This document shows positions 10,670 to 23,809 of a DNA stretch of 64,000 nucleotides, piece after piece (the first letter of the stretch is position 1; every line of letters starts with the position of its first letter). A program made the position numbers and the translations under genes. The DNA is from Caldilineaceae bacterium SB0661_bin_32 (GTDB lineage Bacteria; Chloroflexota; Anaerolineae; Caldilineales; Caldilineaceae), in contig VXMH01000051.1 in NCBI GenBank assembly GCA_009841235.1, positions 1 through 64,000 on the forward strand. The letters run 5' to 3'. The notes beneath the pieces were generated by a model. The model did no database searches and was not told where the DNA came from. It worked only from the letters and a program-made list of their open reading frames with translations.

Positions 10670-10987
10670 TCGCAATTCAGAAAGCAGGATCATAGCGACG
10701 ACGGAGGCAAAACGCGTAGGCTCTCGCGTTAACACACGGTGCTGGATTTGAGAGGCTGCTGCGCCCGGTACCGCCGCTCAGAGACTTGCCCCGGCCCTGC
10801 ATCGCCGACAAGTATAACGATCAGGGCAGTTTGATCCAAACCGCGTCTTGTGGATTGGCAATCCTCCCGCACGACTGGTCCCTTGTCTGGCCCGCAATTG
10901 GGCATTTGTCCTCGATCAGATATGATAGACCCAATTTCGGAATCGTACGATCGCTTTGCCGCACAGGCGCCGCCTGGAAAGTCGTCT
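10670..10987. other. Divergent intergenic region between glycosyltransferase 3 and glgC
   Basis: The region carries the glgC promoter at 10898-10926 and must also hold the promoter of the minus-strand glycosyltransferase gene, which I could not place. The upstream in-frame extension of glgC (ATG at 10850 and 10922) is not used in my call, because the promoter overlaps it. Confidence 0.5.
10898..10926 (+). promoter_or_regulatory. Predicted sigma-70 promoter of glgC
   Basis: TTGGGC at 10898-10903 and TATGAT at 10921-10926 are 17 bases apart. Transcription would start near 10933, 55 bases before the preferred glgC ATG at 10988. This supports the shorter start. Confidence 0.55.
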
Positions 10988-12247
10988 ATGAGAACCGTAG
11001 CAATGATCCTGGCTGGCGGAGAGGGCACTCGTCTGACAGTTCTGTCCGAAAAAAGGGCCAAACCCGCGGTTCCATTCGCCGGCAAATTTCGCATCATCGA
11101 TTTCACGATCAGCAACTGCGTCAATAGCGGTATCTACTCCGTCGGTGTTCTCACCCAGTACCGTCCCCACAGTCTCAACGAGCACATCGGCATCGGTAAA
11201 CCGTGGGATCTCGACCGTCAGCACGGCGGCATCCGCCTCTTGCAGCCGTTTCAGGGCCGCGGCGAACAGGACTGGTATGCCGGCACGGCCGACGCGATCC
11301 TGCAGAATCTGAACTTTCTCGCCGAACACAACGCCGACACCGCCCTGATTCTCTCCGGCGACCACATCTATAAGATGGACTACGGCCCGATGCTGGCGTT
11401 CCACCAGCGCAAGGGCGCGGACCTGACCATCGCCGTAATGCCCGTGCCCATTGAGGAGGCGCACCGTTTCGGCATCATGGAGACGAACCCGGAGGATGAG
11501 ATCGTCCGGTTCCATGAAAAGCCGGAACAGCCGACCAGCAATCTGGCATCAATGGGCATCTATGTTTTTAACAGCCGGGTGCTGGAACAACGCCTGCAGG
11601 AAAAGGGCGCTGACGGCCCCCGGACCGACTTCGGCGAGCACGTCGTCCCCGCCATGCTCGCGGCCGGCGACCGCGTCTTTTCCTACCCTTTCACCGGCTA
11701 CTGGGTCGACGTCGGCACCGTCGACGCCTACTGGAAAACAAGCCTCGAGCTGCTCCAATCCAACCCGGCTCTCGATCTATACACGGACAACTGGCCCATC
11801 TCGACACGCTCGGAGGAACGTCCGCCCGCAAAATTCGGACCCCAGTCCCAGGTCGTACAGAGCATGGTGTCCAACGGTTGCGAAGTCCATGGGGTCGTAA
11901 GAAACAGCATCTTCAGTCCCGGCGTCTATGTGAGCCCCGGCGCGGTCGTGCAGGACAGCATTCTCATGAACGATTCCTGGATCGGCCCCGGCGCACGCGT
12001 GGAACGGGTCATCATCGACAAACAGGTCATCGTCGGGTTCGGCGCCCAGGTCGGCTGTGCCACCTCCGACGCGCCCCCTCCCAATCAGCAGTTTGCCGGG
12101 AAACTGGACACCGGCCATACCGTCATCGGCAAGGGGGCCTTCATTCCCGACGGCGCCCGGATCGGCACCAACGTCATCGTCAACAGCGACCGGGGCGAAG
12201 AGGATTTTCCACCAGACTTCGTCGTGGAGGACGGGCAAACCGTATAG
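10988..12247 (+). CDS. glgC: Glucose-1-phosphate adenylyltransferase (ADP-glucose pyrophosphorylase)
   Basis: The 419-aa enzyme makes ADP-glucose from glucose-1-phosphate and ATP, the committed step of bacterial glycogen synthesis. It begins [16 protein letters not shown], the nucleotide-binding loop of the family, followed by [15 protein letters not shown] with the conserved lysine. [11 protein letters not shown] holds the metal-binding aspartate and the C-terminal third shows the left-handed beta-helix pattern typical of GlgC (hexapeptide-like repeats around [20 protein letters not shown]). The start at 10988 has GGAAAG upstream. A glgC-like paralog follows 47 bases later, probably in the same transcript. 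No other glycogen genes are in the window. Confidence 0.93.
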
Positions 12248-12294
12248 CTTTCGCACTGCGCGCCTACACGAACGGACCGCGAGGATTGTTCCCT

Positions 12295-13575
12295 ATGTCT
12301 TGTGCATTTGCCGTGATCATGGCCGGCGCCGACAACGCCGACCTCAGTGTCCTTACCGAAGTCCGCTCCGAGCCGGCCGTCCCCTTCGCCGGCAAGTTCC
12401 GCCTGATCGACTTCTCTCTCAGCAACTGCGTCAACAGCGGCATCCACAACGTCGCGGTGCTCACTCAATACCGCCCCCGCAGCCTCAACGATCATATCGG
12501 TATCGGCAAACCCTGGGACCTCGACCGCTCCAGCGGCGGCGTGCGCCTGTTGCAGCCCTACCGCGGCGGTCCTTACGGCGACTGGCAACGCGGCTCCGCC
12601 GACGCCATCCGCCGAAACCTGGACTACGTACTCCAGCAAAAGGAGGAGTGCGTACTGATCCTCTCCGGCAAACATATCTATCTGATGGATTACGGGCCCT
12701 TTCTTGAGCACCATCAGCGCAGCGGCGCGCCCGCGACCATTGCGGTCCGCCGCGTCAGCCGCCACGAAACCCATCGTTTCGGTATCATTACACAGGATAC
12801 GGACGACCGCGTCGTCGAGTTCCAGGAAAAGCCGCGGCGCACGCAGCAGAATCTTGCCAGCATGGGCGTCTATGTCTTCAGCCGCAACTTTCTCGTAGAA
12901 GTCCTGAGCAACGCGGGCGGCGATGACATCGGCAGGGACATCCTGCCGGGGCTGGTGGAACAAGGGCATGTCGCCAGCTACACCTATCCCGGATACTGGG
13001 CCGATGCCAGCACGGTTCAGGCCTACTGGGATGCCAATATGAGCCTGCTGGCTGAAGAACCGGCCCTCAACCTATATGCGCCGGAGTGGGTCGTGCATAC
13101 CCGCAGCCAGGAACGCGCCCCGGTCAAGCTGGGGCCCGCCGCAGACGTGGATGGGGCACTGTTATCCAATGGCTGTCAGATCGAAGGCGCCGTGGAACGA
13201 AGCGTGCTGTCCCCCGGCGTGCAGGTGGGCGAGGGAGCCGTCGTCCGAGACAGTGTCATTCTCAACGACACCGTCGTCGAAGCGGGCGCGGTCGTCGAGC
13301 GCTGTGTGATCGACAAAGAGGTGCGCGTCTGTCAGGACGCGCTCGTGGGCCACTCCGACAACAACAGCCCCAACCCGGAGCTGCCGGCCCGGCTCAACAC
13401 CGGCCTGACCCTCGTCGGCAAGGGCAGCGTCGTTCCCGCCGGCATGCGGCTAGGCCGTAATGTCGTAATTCATCCCTTCAGCGGCGCCGACGCATTCCGC
13501 AATGGCAATGACAATGACAGGGGCAAGGGCAATGGCGTCGAAAGCGGGACAAGCATCGGCCGCAATCTGCGCTGA
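12295..13575 (+). CDS. GlgC-like protein with altered catalytic motifs (probable regulatory/non-catalytic partner)
   Basis: This 426-aa protein is a clear paralog of the preceding GlgC along its whole length (for example [20 protein letters not shown] and [12 protein letters not shown] are shared). The active-site signature is broken: LAGGEGTRL of the neighbour is MAGADNADL here, SEKRAKP is TEVRSEP, and the metal-binding D of LSGDHIY is K in LSGKHIY. Known analogues are GlgD of Firmicutes and the plant large subunit, which form hetero-oligomers with an active GlgC. By inference this product has lost catalysis and modulates the neighbour. The ATG at 12295 is preceded by GAGG. The C-terminal tail is Asn/Asp/Gly-rich and repetitive, encoded by short GGCAATGAC-type repeats. 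Confidence 0.85.
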
Positions 13576-14054: not shown

Positions 14055-14717
14055 ATGCAGTATAGCATCAGCGGTGAGATTGCCCAGTCCGCACGCCTCG
14101 TTTTCGCCCCGGGTGAAGATGCCTGGGTCAGCAAGGGCGCCCTCATGGCCTATTCCTCCCGGCTGCAGTGGAGGCTGCGCCTGCCGGGCGGAGCAGGCGG
14201 CGCGCTGCGGCGCAGCCTCTCCGGCGAAGGCGTCGCCCTCACCTACCTGGAATCGAAAGCGGAAGAACAGTATGCCCTCCTGGCGGCCAACGCACCGGGC
14301 CATCTGGAGATCTGGGACCTGGAGCGCGACGGCCCCGTGACGACGACGCGCGGCTCCTTCGTCGCCGCCTGGGGCGAAGACGTCGACATCACCGTGACGG
14401 TCGCGCGCCGCGCCGGGGCAGCCGTTTTCGGCGGCGCCGGCCTCTTTCTGCAGACGATTTCCGGACTGGGCATCGCGCTCGTGCACGGCAGCGGCGACTT
14501 CTACGAGCGCCAGATGGCGGCCGGCGAAGAGCTGCTCGTCAGCACTGGAAACCTGGCCGCATTTTCCTCTGGAATCGACTATGATATCCGCGGCGTGGGC
14601 GGCTGCCGCAGAATGCTTTTCGGCGGCGAAGGGCTGTTTATGACCAACCTGCGCGGCCCCGGACGCGTCCTGCTCCAGACTCTCAAGCGCAGCAGTGGCT
14701 CAAATTCATCCGGCTGA
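14055..14717 (+). CDS. AIM24 family protein
   Basis: The 220-aa product matches the AIM24/TIGR00266 family: [21 protein letters not shown], then [83 protein letters not shown]. The fold is a beta-rich repeat related to tryptophan RNA-binding attenuator-like proteins. Its function in bacteria is not established. The ATG at 14055 has AAAGGAG seven bases upstream, an ideal ribosome site. A short 46-base divergent region is shared with the SUI1 gene. Confidence 0.88.
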
Positions 14718-14901
14718 GGCGCGCGGCCTGCCTCTTCTGCCGCTGAGCGATCCACCATTCATTTCTGTCGCGACCGCCAGGCCGACACCATCCTTCAACG
14801 AAACTGTGATTTGGTATCTGTATGCTCTTCGACCAAAATGTTGGACAGAGCCCTACAAGTGGATACGTTGATCCATCGCTCTCATCCCGAGGAGGTCCGC
14901 C

Positions 14902-15435
14902 ATGTGCGCAGACAGCCGATCCCTCATACGAACTGTCAGCGGCGAGGTCCGATTGCCCGACCCCGTTGACGATGCCATTCTGACGCTCGGCGTACGGATG
15001 CGCGATCCGCTCTCGTACCAGGATATCGCGTCGGCATTCGGCATCGCTCACGACGATGTAAGCGAAATCTGCGAACCGTACAAGGAGCTGTTGCGCACGG
15101 CGGGAGAAGAAGGCCCTGCCTTGACCTATACGCGACGGTCGTCCCGGAAGGCAGTTCGGCCGCGCGCGATGTGGGAGAATGCGGCATTTGGGAACAGTGG
15201 GAGGGAATCTTTTCAGAAACAGCAGATCGTGAACGGCGCTGACCGGCTCGCCGATCCTGTCGAAGATGCCGTCTTGACGCTGGGCGTGCGTTTGACCAAT
15301 CCGCTTTCGTACGAGGAAATTGCGTCGCTCCTGCAAATCGCTCACGAGGACGCAAGTAGAATCTGCAAGCCTTACAGGGAGTTCATGCGCAAAGCAGGAG
15401 AATATGGGGTCCGCGGCGTTACCCGGACGGGATAG
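14902..15435 (+). CDS. Hypothetical protein made of two tandem copies of a helical domain
   Basis: The 177-aa product contains the same domain twice. Copy A spans about residues 18-71 (RLPDPVDDAILTLGVRM ... LSYQDIASAFGIAHDDVSEI ... YKELLRTAGEEG) and copy B about residues 104-158 (RLADPVEDAVLTLGVRL ... LSYEEIASLLQIAHEDASRI ... YREFMRKAGEYG), joined by a basic linker of about 35 residues. The SYEEIASLLQIAHEDASRI part resembles a sigma-factor-like or resolvase-like helix-turn-helix, so DNA binding is possible but is an inference. The ATG has GAGGAGGT just upstream. I do not recognise a named family. Confidence 0.72.
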   Translation: MCADSRSLIRTVSGEVRLPDPVDDAILTLGVRMRDPLSYQDIASAFGIAHDDVSEICEPYKELLRTAGEEGPALTYTRRSSRKAVRPRAMWENAAFGNSGRESFQKQQIVNGADRLADPVEDAVLTLGVRLTNPLSYEEIASLLQIAHEDASRICKPYREFMRKAGEYGVRGVTRTG

Positions 15436-20459: not shown

Positions 20460-20495
20460 ACTTTGCCTCCCTGCAAGCGGCAACCGCGGACCGAA

Positions 20496-23396
20496 CTACC
20501 TCCTCCTTCTGCGACCGCCTCTGCCTCTGCCCTTCCCATTTTTCTCCCGCTCCGCCAGCATATGCAACGCCTGTTCGAGCGTAACACTCCGGGGATCCGT
20601 CTCCTTCGGAATCGTGGCGTTCGTGCTATTGTGGTTGACGTACGGACCATAGCGCCCGTCCAGCACGCATACCGGTTCGCCGTCATTGGGATGCGCGCCC
20701 AACTCCTTCAGGACCGTGCGCGTCGAACCGCCCCGTCTCCGGTCCGGGGCCTCCTTAATCAACGCCAGCGCACGCGGCAGGTCCACCTCCAGCACACTGT
20801 CCGGCGCCTTCAGGCTCACAAATTTCCGGTTGTGGACCACGTAGGGTCCGTACCGCCCCACGCCAGCGCGCACCTCCTCGCCGTCTTCAGGATGCGTCCC
20901 CAGCACGCGCGGCAGGCTCAGGAGTTGCAGCGCCGTCTCCAGGTCCATCCCCTCCTTCGTCATACCCTTTAGCAGGCTGACCCGCTTAGGTTTTCCATTG
21001 GATTTGCTCTGCCGTTCCTCCGCCGAGGAGACCGCCGCCTTGGGCTTTCCTTTACCGGCGACAACCAGGGGCGTGAGCGTTTCAACGGCCTTGGCGCCAA
21101 GCCGGGGCACGCGCTCCAATTCCGCCGCCGATGCATAGGGACGGCCTGCGATGATCCCCTTGGCCAGTCCCGGTCCGATCCCCGGCAGCGCGGTCAGCTG
21201 CCTGGCGGTAGCCGTGTTGATGTCAACCGGACCAGTCGGGGTTCGCGGCTTCTCCTCTCTCGACCCGTCCTCGCCCAGCTGTACATACGCGCCGTAACGC
21301 CCATCCTTCACCAGGACCGGCTGGCCGCTCACCGGGTCGTCCCCCAGTTTTACCGGCCCCTCCTGCTTTGCACTCACCAGCGCCTCGACCGCGGCCGCGT
21401 CCAAGTCCCCTGGCGCCAGATCATCCGGCAGGCTCACCGTCTGCCTGTCGCCGTTCACCTCCCGCGCCAGAAACGGCCCAAACTGTCCAATCCGCACCTC
21501 GACCGGCAGGTCGGGAAAGTCGACCCGGCCCGCATGGCGGGGATCGATGACGTTCTCCTTTTCCCTGACCTGGCTCTCCAAGCCCTGCTCACTCAGATAG
21601 AACTGGTTCAGGTATTCGAGCCAGTCCACCTCCCCCTCGGCGATGTCATCCAGGGTCTGCTCCATCTCCGCCGTAAACTTCAGGTCCACCAGCTCCTCGA
21701 AGTTGCTCTCCAGGAGCTGCACGACCGCAAAGGCAACGAACGTGGGCACCAGCTCCCGCCGCTGTTTGAAGACGTAACCCCGGTTCTGAATCGTGTCGAT
21801 GATCGTGGCGTAGGTGCTCGGGCGGCCGATGCCCTCCGTCTCCAGCGCTCGGACCAGCGTCGCCTCCGTGTAGCGGGCGGGCGGCTTCGTGGCGTGCCCC
21901 AGCGCCTCCAGTTCCCGGCAGTCCACCTCCTCATCCTTGGCCAGCGCCGGCAACGGCGATTCCTGGTTCTCAATCGCGGCATCGGGATCATCGGAGCCTT
22001 CAACATAGGCACGGAAGTATCCGGGAAAGAGGATCTCCCGCCCCGACGCGCGGAAAAGCGCCTCATCCGCCGCGTCCCTTGCCGACTGCCCGATTGCACG
22101 GATCATCACCGTCGTTGTACGCAAGCGGGCCTTCGCCATCTGCGTCGCCACCGTCCGTTTCCAGATCATGTCGTAAAGCGTCGCCTCATCGCCCGAGAGC
22201 GGGAGCGTTTCGAGAGGACGCATCGCGTTGCCCGCCGGCCGGATCGCTTCATGCGCTTCCTGCGCGCCCTTTGACTTCGTCCTGTATCGCCGCGGTTTCT
22301 CAGTCAGATACCGTTCGCCGTAGCGCTCCTGCACACGCCGCCGCGCCGCGTTCACAGCCTCGTCGCTGAGATGCACCGAATCGGTGCGCATATAGGTAAT
22401 GTAACCGTTTTCGTACAGGGACTGCGCCACCCGCATCGTCCGCCTCGCTCCCCACCCCTTCTTGCGGTTGGCCTCCTGCTGCAGCGTGCTCGTCGTAAAT
22501 GGCGGCGCCGGCGAACGGGACTGCTCCGAGCTCTCAATCGAGTGCACAACCCAACTGCCGTCCTGCAGGCGCTGCTGCAACGCCCTCGCCTGCTCCTCAT
22601 CCAGCAGCAGAACGTCTCCACTGCCCTTGCTCGGGTGCGTCTTTACCCGCTTGCCCGCCGCGATCCGTCCCGTCGATTCATCGAAATCCCGTCCAGCGGC
22701 CACCCGCGTCCCGTTCACCGAAACCAGCGCGGCCTCGAAACGGTGCGCTGCGCTGTCCGGGCGTTTGTTGAGCTGCGCCTTCAAATCCCAATAGGAGCCG
22801 CTTACAAATGCCCGCCGTTCCCGCTCCCGCAGCACCAGCAGCCGCACCGCCGCGCTCTGCACCCGGCCGGCCGACAGCCTCGGCGCGATCTTCTTCCACA
22901 ACAACGGCGAGATCGTATAACCCACCAGGCGATCGAGAATGCGCCGCGTCTCCTGCGCCCGCACCAGATCGTTGTCGATCGAACGCGTCGATTTCAGCGC
23001 CTGCTCGATCGCCTCGCGCGTAATTTCGTGAAATATCATCCGCCTGACCGGAACCTTCGGCTTCAGCACCTCATAGAGATGCCAGCCGATACTCTCCCCT
23101 TCCCGGTCCTCGTCCGTGGCGAGCAAGACCTCTTCCGCCCCTTTCAAAGCCGACCTCAGCTCGGAAACGACCTTCTTCTTGTCCGACGGAACGACATACA
23201 GCGGCTCGAACTCATCCTGCACCTTGACACCGAGCCGCGCCCAGGGCTCACCCTTCACCTTCGCGGGAATCTCGGCAGCAGAGGCCGGCAGATCGCGCAC
23301 GTGCCCCATGCTGGCCTTGACTTCATATCCCCTTGGCAAAAAACCGCGAATCGTTCTGGCCTTGGTCGGCGACTCTACAATGACTAATTTCGACAT
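20496..23396 (-). CDS. topA: DNA topoisomerase I
   Basis: The 966-aa type IA topoisomerase relaxes negative supercoils. It starts [20 protein letters not shown] (TOPRIM), with the metal-site block [10 protein letters not shown], then the gate region; the active-site tyrosine is in [12 protein letters not shown]. The C-terminus carries repeated short beta domains ([58 protein letters not shown]) instead of Cys4 zinc fingers. Between the first and second of these, about residues 720-778, is an extra ComEA-like helix-hairpin-helix unit ([19 protein letters not shown]). The chain ends in a run of Arg/Gly. The start at 23396 fits the family; a longer frame to 23441 adds residues unlike it. Confidence 0.95.
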
Positions 23397-23809
23397 TCTT
23401 CTTCTTATGGTTGATGGTTTATGAACAGTAACTGAATGCAAAGAAGTTCTACCGATCAGGGTCCTACCTGCATTTCAGCCGAGATAGAATACACAAGAAC
23501 ATTGACGCGGGCAAGTGAAATGCCAAGGAAATTGCGCGCTTCCCTTGCGCTCCCGGCAACTCGTACAAGGGCCGTACACTTCTCGTCATGCGCTCGTAAG
23601 CGCGCCCCAATGTTCGCTCCTCTGAATGAGCCAATGGCAGGTCTTTCTCTCTCCTTTCTCCTCGCCTCTGTGCGGTCGGGCCTCTCTTGTGCAGGGGGTG
23701 TGCCCCCGCAACGCCCTCCTCTCGCTATCCGTTGACAGCCGCGGCCCTTCGACATATACTGAGCACAGTTTCTTGCCCCTCACTTTCAATGCAACGGGGA
23801 GACAGAACC
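23397..23809. other. Divergent intergenic region, topA to FG-GAP lipoprotein gene
   Basis: Contains the strong plus-strand promoter at 23732-23760 for the FG-GAP gene and the upstream region of topA. I could not place a good promoter for topA. I see no other gene in these 413 bases. Confidence 0.5.
23732..23760 (+). promoter_or_regulatory. Near-consensus sigma-70 promoter
   Basis: TTGACA at 23732-23737 (perfect) and TATACT at 23755-23760 (5/6) are exactly 17 bases apart. Transcription should begin near 23767, upstream of the chosen GTG start at 23810. Confidence 0.75.

Follow-up and report, generated by a model that had tools for sequence, protein, structure and literature searches.

An orphan twin-HTH protein of one uncultured Caldilineaceae genus and a conserved, putatively autoregulatory element ahead of its gene

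KorA and ArdK are among the described regulators closest to the protein reported here. According to the excerpted text of PMC9723621, KorA binds inverted repeats as a symmetric dimer, and ArdK has a recognition motif identical to that of the sigma-70 HTH that sits at the -35 box. As described in the same excerpts, ArdK carries one HTH together with a separate C-terminal dimerisation domain, whereas the present protein, encoded at 14902-15435 of the window (the whole stretch of DNA analysed, 64,000 nucleotides), has two HTHs in one chain of 177 amino acids. In the model, 10 residues follow the final helix of its second HTH, and there is no separate C-terminal dimerisation domain; the protein further differs from KorA and ArdK in that sequence searches of solved structures gave it no match. 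Mce3R of M. tuberculosis, a double TetR repressor that is autoregulated and homodimeric, likewise has its HTH units duplicated within a chain (abridged account in PMC11667970). This protein serves as an analogue only, with no homology claimed, and it differs in its TetR fold, ligand domain and non-palindromic sites, as given in the same abridged account (PMC11667970). The AraC-family proteins MarA and Rob also combine two HTH motifs in a single short chain (extracts of PMC8279559), a likeness by description, and no AraC family was among the matches listed (25 of 31 Pfam families). By fold, and weakly by sequence, each repeat of the 177-aa protein resembles the HTH type of the -35-binding region 4 of sigma-70. 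Sigma-70 factors, however, have a region 2, of which none was seen here, and the chain bears two region-4-like copies. The HTH class is known already; what appears to be new, from sequence comparison, is a double-HTH orphan restricted to one genus as far as searched.

The gene and the parts of its product are located as follows.

14890-14895, forward strand: AGGAGG ribosome-binding site (sequence; largely kept in the upstream alignment)
14902-15435, forward strand: two-HTH-repeat protein of 177 aa (open reading frame, 15 distinct sequences, pN/pS)
14938-15114, forward strand: N-terminal repeat, residues 13-71 (alignment, domain profile, trees)
15016-15081, forward strand: predicted N-terminal HTH, residues 39-60, comprising helix 39-46 and the start of helix 50-70 (AlphaFold2 model)
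15115-15231, forward strand: basic connector, residues 72-110, with the motif RPRxxWExxxFGNSGR (lowest pN/pS of six segments; invariant columns)
15232-15408, forward strand: C-terminal repeat, residues 111-169 (alignment, domain profile, trees)
15310-15375, forward strand: predicted C-terminal HTH, residues 137-158 (model, alignment, parsimony)

The open reading frame starts with ATG, 6 nt after AGGAGG, and stops with TAG. The 25 loci of the gene were collapsed to 15 distinct sequences, the window's included, in all of which the frame is intact; GTG starts were assigned manually for L013/L023, L014/L024 and L015. Identity of the 14 other orthologues to the window protein ranges over 68-93%. 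Mean pN/pS over the 15 sequences was 0.32. By segment it came to 0.80 for the first 12 residues, 0.34 and 0.28 for the N and C repeats, and 0.21 for the connector; the gene is under purifying selection.

The original prediction described two near-identical domains of about 54 residues, repeated at both protein and DNA level. The tandem repeat is real at both levels, with 36 of 59 residues (61%) identical between residues 13-71 and 111-169, at an offset of 98 residues, and 70.1% of the bases identical across the repeat, so that "near-identical" overstates the likeness. The 36 identities compare with a mean of 4.2 and a maximum of 14 in 100,000 shuffles, and BLASTP aligned the repeat halves with 37 of 62 residues identical (E 4e-28); a DNA repeat search recovered just one 71-nt stretch, at 75% identity. 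Inside one gene, the N and C repeats share 51-63% of residues across the 15 sequences. In trees of the 30 repeats, all 15 C copies formed a single clade (support 0.985 for protein and 0.992 for DNA), which places the duplication before the sampled radiation, and N-versus-C pS within a gene (0.44-0.69) was as large as the between-species mean of 0.48. The recent duplication that had been considered is rejected. The structural repeat is probably longer than 54 residues, because the leading helix 97-111 corresponds in position to helix 3-12. This helix also qualifies the linker as first described: residues 72-110 are indeed basic (eight K/R and two E by manual count), but they are not wholly linker, since the helix lies at their end. 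The connector with its RPRxxWExxxFGNSGR motif was the most constrained of the six segments and yet was poorly modelled, with pLDDT <50 at residues 77-82 and 86-94.

The full-length AlphaFold2 model (mean pLDDT 77.1, pTM 0.77) had a similar series of helices in both halves, namely 3-12, 21-32, 39-46 and 50-70 in the N half, and 92-95 and 97-111, 119-130, 137-144 and 148-167 in the C half. Modelled alone, the C half reached a pLDDT of 65.9, against block means of 82-91 for residues 111-160 in the full-length model; poor modelling alone and good modelling within the complete chain would fit packing between the halves. Both repeats are predicted to be tri-helical HTH domains with a recognition helix, a DNA-binding fold, and the resemblance of both to DNA-binding domains in the models and structural comparisons bore out the earlier reading of the helix pattern. 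For the N half, sigma-70 region 4 led the structural matches, with KorA and ArdK tied (Z 5.0-5.8). The HTH of the latter two, with its preceding helix, was among the top matches (7bca_A for ArdK, Z 5.2; 5clv_E for KorA, Z 5.1), and these entries, together with 8qa9_C from a KorB co-complex, aligned over 55-57 residues at Z 5.1-5.3 and rmsd 4.0-4.4. For the C half, the matches were mainly to sigma region 4, with a top Z of 5.8. All these Z-scores are <8, the range in which the tool warns of a merely common arrangement, and on these models the modest values are taken to reflect the common HTH arrangement rather than descent. Foldseek with the full-length model gave a best E of 0.043 in the PDB and 0.025 in viral models.

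Sequence profiles gave a similarly mixed picture. Sigma70_r4 matched 15 of 15 members weakly (E<=1) and exceeded its curated cut-off of 24.1 in two of the eight orthologues scanned singly (L009, 27.9; L008, 26.8), the window protein scoring 13.6 bits against the same cut-off. The sigma-like label is not exclusive, because HTH_Crp_2 also matched all 15 members weakly, and it beat Sigma70_r4 on the window protein. At E<=1, NF045758 (YlxM) was matched in 8 of 15 members, with 0.0081 as the best value, and HTH_Tnp_4 exceeded its cut-off in one of the eight orthologues scanned (L015, 27.8 vs 27). No family of sigma region 2 was matched by the window protein at E<=10 or by the eight orthologues at E<=0.01, and the TIGR02937 match of the window protein spans profile positions 132-163 of 165 alone. 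As no region 2 was seen, the 177-aa protein is not regarded as a sigma factor.

The gene was present in 15 of 61 genomes (its own and 60 relatives), all belonging to one uncultured Caldilineaceae genus, of whose 17 genomes 15 carry it intact, with one match per carrier. Genome contigs, scanned independently, yielded 10 loci, every one of them in a Caldilineaceae MAG, and either nine or all of their 10 coding sequences are identical to sequences already found. No confirmed relative was obtained from the viral contigs, phages and plasmids scanned, the window protein matched no PHROG family at an E below 0.05, and the sequence search of solved structures gave a best E of 0.89 for the whole protein. 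The domain profile had as its best match to solved structures (E 0.0034) an 18-position stretch of an entry called CAP REPEAT. Single-domain forms had been expected to coexist with the double-domain form in relatives; none was recognised as far as searched, the weak matches lying at E 0.002-1, a result that counts against the original prediction. This holds for 46 family genomes searched with the domain profile (best outside the gene, E 0.026) and for 400 phylum genomes with at most 16 candidates scored per genome. Under the same scoring limit, the phylum genomes gave nine matches outside the gene's own genome at E 0.002-0.008. Five of these were examined, and all five fit sigma-factor families, four exceeding the TIGR02937 cut-off and the fifth, a 55-aa piece, falling below it. 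No description of the protein was found in the literature searched, and by sequence it appears to be an orphan double-HTH protein, restricted to the genus as far as searched.

Where assembled, the gene order kept across the genus is two GlgC-like genes, SUI1, AIM24, the 177-aa gene, PGA_cap and a chromate transporter. AIM24 lies on the same strand and ends 184 nt upstream of 14902-15435, and the PGA_cap gene is convergent. PGA_cap adjoins the 177-aa gene in 15 of 15 carriers, and SUI1 was matched nearby in as many. No operon or toxin-antitoxin partner was seen among the neighbours AIM24, PGA_cap and chromate transporter. In three genomes of other genera (G022, G067 and G030), the GlgC-like pair, SUI1, AIM24 and PGA_cap are present without the 177-aa gene, the distance between the ends of AIM24 and PGA_cap being approximately 40 bases in G022, 100 in G030 and 2,000 in G067; in the G017 and G029 regions, PGA_cap alone of this gene set was found. 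Within the genus, the locus of G003 (one contig, 99% complete), which branches basally with a support of 0.92, has neither the 177-aa gene nor AIM24. In G002 (81% complete), the contig seems, judging by locus length, to end approximately 170 bases upstream of the chromate transporter, so the gene's absence there may be an assembly gap. Most likely, the gene was gained inside the genus, because it is absent from the locus in basal G003 and in the three syntenic relatives from other genera; alternatively, it may have been lost in G003 along with AIM24.

Upstream of the gene, the following features were delineated.

14808-14844, forward strand: conserved element, putative operator overlapping the gene's promoter (upstream alignment, parsimony, genome pattern searches)
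14810-14815, forward strand: proposed left half-site TTTGGT (mirror of 14832-14837)
14832-14837, forward strand: proposed right half-site ACCAAA (mirror of 14810-14815)
14811-14839, forward strand: alternative reading as a weak sigma-70-like promoter, TTGGTA - 17 nt - CAAAAT (read from sequence)

Block 14808-14844 was conserved in the aligned upstream DNA of 15 loci, with TTTGGT and ACCAAA placed 22 bp apart, centre to centre, in the window. That the element is kept in G006, where there is no upstream AIM24 match, speaks for the operator reading; against it counts that in G010 and G012, which do have the gene, the element can hardly be recognised. Of 17 genomes in the genus, 13 had a single match each to a loose pattern, ahead of this gene, with no match for the reversed control, and a sequence profile gave 13 strong matches, all at the locus in the same 13 genomes, the next best having E 0.005. 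A strict inverted-repeat pattern matched 12 times, 10 of them at the locus; the two matches elsewhere (G004 and G014) look like chance, because the reversed control gave six. Since loose, strict and profile searches of these 17 genomes gave no comparable copy elsewhere, no regulon backs the operator reading. The sequence TTGGTA - 17 nt - CAAAAT agrees with 8 of the 12 letters of the sigma-70 promoter consensus; it scores below the threshold of 9 of 12, at which no promoter was listed there. Conservation of a core promoter alone would explain most of the element's conservation. An RNA hairpin formed by TTTGGT and ACCAAA is disfavoured, as the changes on the branch to G001 and G004 turn a G-C pair into C-A.

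Changes in the element and the protein were placed by parsimony on a tree of flanking genes, with ties resolved to the commonest state and the root set at G010+G012. These flank-gene trees include a GlgC2 query in the wrong frame and a stop-containing query from the gene at 20495-23440. Because the element is barely alignable in G010/G012, its changes within this pair, and those on the branch leading to the remaining genomes, were left out of the reading. On the branch to G001+G004, just two changes were placed in 14808-14844, 14814 G>C and 14833 C>A; these are mirror positions about the axis 14823.5, and each half-site loses the same G, one to C and the other, on its own strand, to T. The same branch takes nine changes in residues 138-151 of the C-terminal HTH, including a one-residue insertion, and none in the N-terminal HTH (residues 34-62), where later changes fall on each of the tips G001 and G004. 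By manual count, two random changes among 37 positions would be mirror-placed in 16/666 = 0.024 of cases, a value that takes its axis from the window's own 6-bp repeat, itself possibly chance, and that concerns a single branch event noticed post hoc. Two branches count against co-change, G009+G015 (residues 142, 149, 150 and 151) and G007+G008+G013 (residues 136, 144 and 149), on which these residues change with the half-sites unchanged. On the branch to G000+G006+G016, 14836 C>A accompanies C-terminal changes, but its mirror position is unaltered and there are N-terminal replacements as well; little weight is given to this branch.

In L007 and L010, FDDMNRKDV stands in place of the usual turn and the start of the recognition helix, with one extra residue; by parsimony, this replacement occurred a single time, in the common ancestor of G004 and G001. 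These two genomes are sisters in the flanking genes, and a tree of GlgC1, GlgC2 (correct frame) and CapA joins them with a support of 0.979, so that transfer of the changed C domain between them is not needed. In the domain trees, however, the N repeat of G001 does not join that of G004, and this, together with the later N-terminal changes on the tips, makes local recombination possible.

Our preferred reading, to which we give a little less than an even chance, is that the 177-aa protein is an autoregulatory twin-HTH regulator, putatively binding 14808-14844 and repressing its own promoter as a dimer. An old internal duplication would have fused two sigma-70-region-4-like HTH domains into one chain; the protein would bind the element overlapping its own promoter and thereby repress its own transcription. 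Two chains would bind as a dimer that reads the TTTGG half-sites through its C-terminal domains; the N-terminal domains, together with the conserved connector, would hold the assembly or add contacts. The repeat and its age, the restriction to the genus as far as searched, the predicted fold, the conserved element and the one co-change are computed results; from them we infer that the protein binds DNA, dimerises and acts as a repressor and not as an activator. A dimer with a C domain on each half-site is suggested by the changes on the G001+G004 branch, because both half-sites change while the C-terminal recognition region alone changes. In the original prediction, the helix pattern would suit two adjacent half-sites; an inverted-repeat-like element does lie in the gene's own promoter region, but instead of one domain of a single chain per half-site, the C-domain dimer fits better, as judged from one event. 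A narrower proposal, which we consider unlikely, is that a genus-specific, doubled sigma-region-4-like regulator reads -35-like half-sites in its own promoter in competition with sigma, and that its C-terminal region and the mirror bases were rewired together. This would be a natural specificity switch on one lineage. If autoregulation is true, a single genus of conserved gene order would offer a compact case in which to trace the doubling of a DNA-binding domain together with the operator it reads and a switch of specificity made in one step. The protein would also stand for an orphan regulator family from an uncultured lineage.

The main rival to autoregulation, a possible though rather doubtful one, is that the protein acts in trans, as an activator or repressor of other genes, and that the element is a mere conserved core promoter and not a binding site. 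TTGGTA - 17 nt - CAAAAT has promoter spacing, no better promoter was listed, and C-terminal recognition residues changed on other branches with the half-sites unchanged. Any targets besides the gene itself would also lie elsewhere under this explanation, because it sits between same-strand AIM24 and convergent PGA_cap. What a trans-acting factor leaves unexplained is the mirror placing of both G001+G004 element changes and the coincident C-terminal replacement; moreover, 14833 falls narrowly beyond the -10 hexamer of that promoter reading.

Sigma binds the beta flap of RNA polymerase through its region 4, and the protein could be a mimic of this region that acts on the polymerase or a sigma partner and not primarily on DNA. 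The resemblance of both halves to sigma region 4 in the structural comparisons and a connector more conserved than the HTH domains would suit such a mimic, which we nevertheless hold to be very unlikely, as the same likeness is common to the plain repressors KorA and ArdK (excerpts of PMC9723621). Scarcely probable, too, is a domesticated HTH protein from a transposase, plasmid or phage that the genus has kept: scans of plasmids, phages and viral contigs gave no confirmed match, and this, the single match per genome in the 15 carriers, the same PGA_cap neighbour each time and the purifying selection weigh against the passing of the HTH_Tnp_4 cut-off by L015 and the position of the gene between two genes that adjoin without it in related genera.

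The neighbouring genes showed some features of their own. Of the 15 carriers, 11 gave a full-length match to AIM24 (14055-14717) and G008 a 58-aa fragment; there was no match in G006, G007 and G013 or at the G003 locus, a repeated loss beside the 177-aa gene. The two adjacent GlgC-like nucleotidyltransferase genes at 10850-13575 are copies approximately 50% identical, and the pair also occurs in regions L112, L113, L116 and L117. In the last of these, the gap between AIM24 and PGA_cap of G030 (L117:2225-2345) contains GTGATTGGGGA and GGTGACAGGTGACTGGGA, which with their complements make up a long inverted repeat, recognised by eye and possibly a bidirectional terminator.
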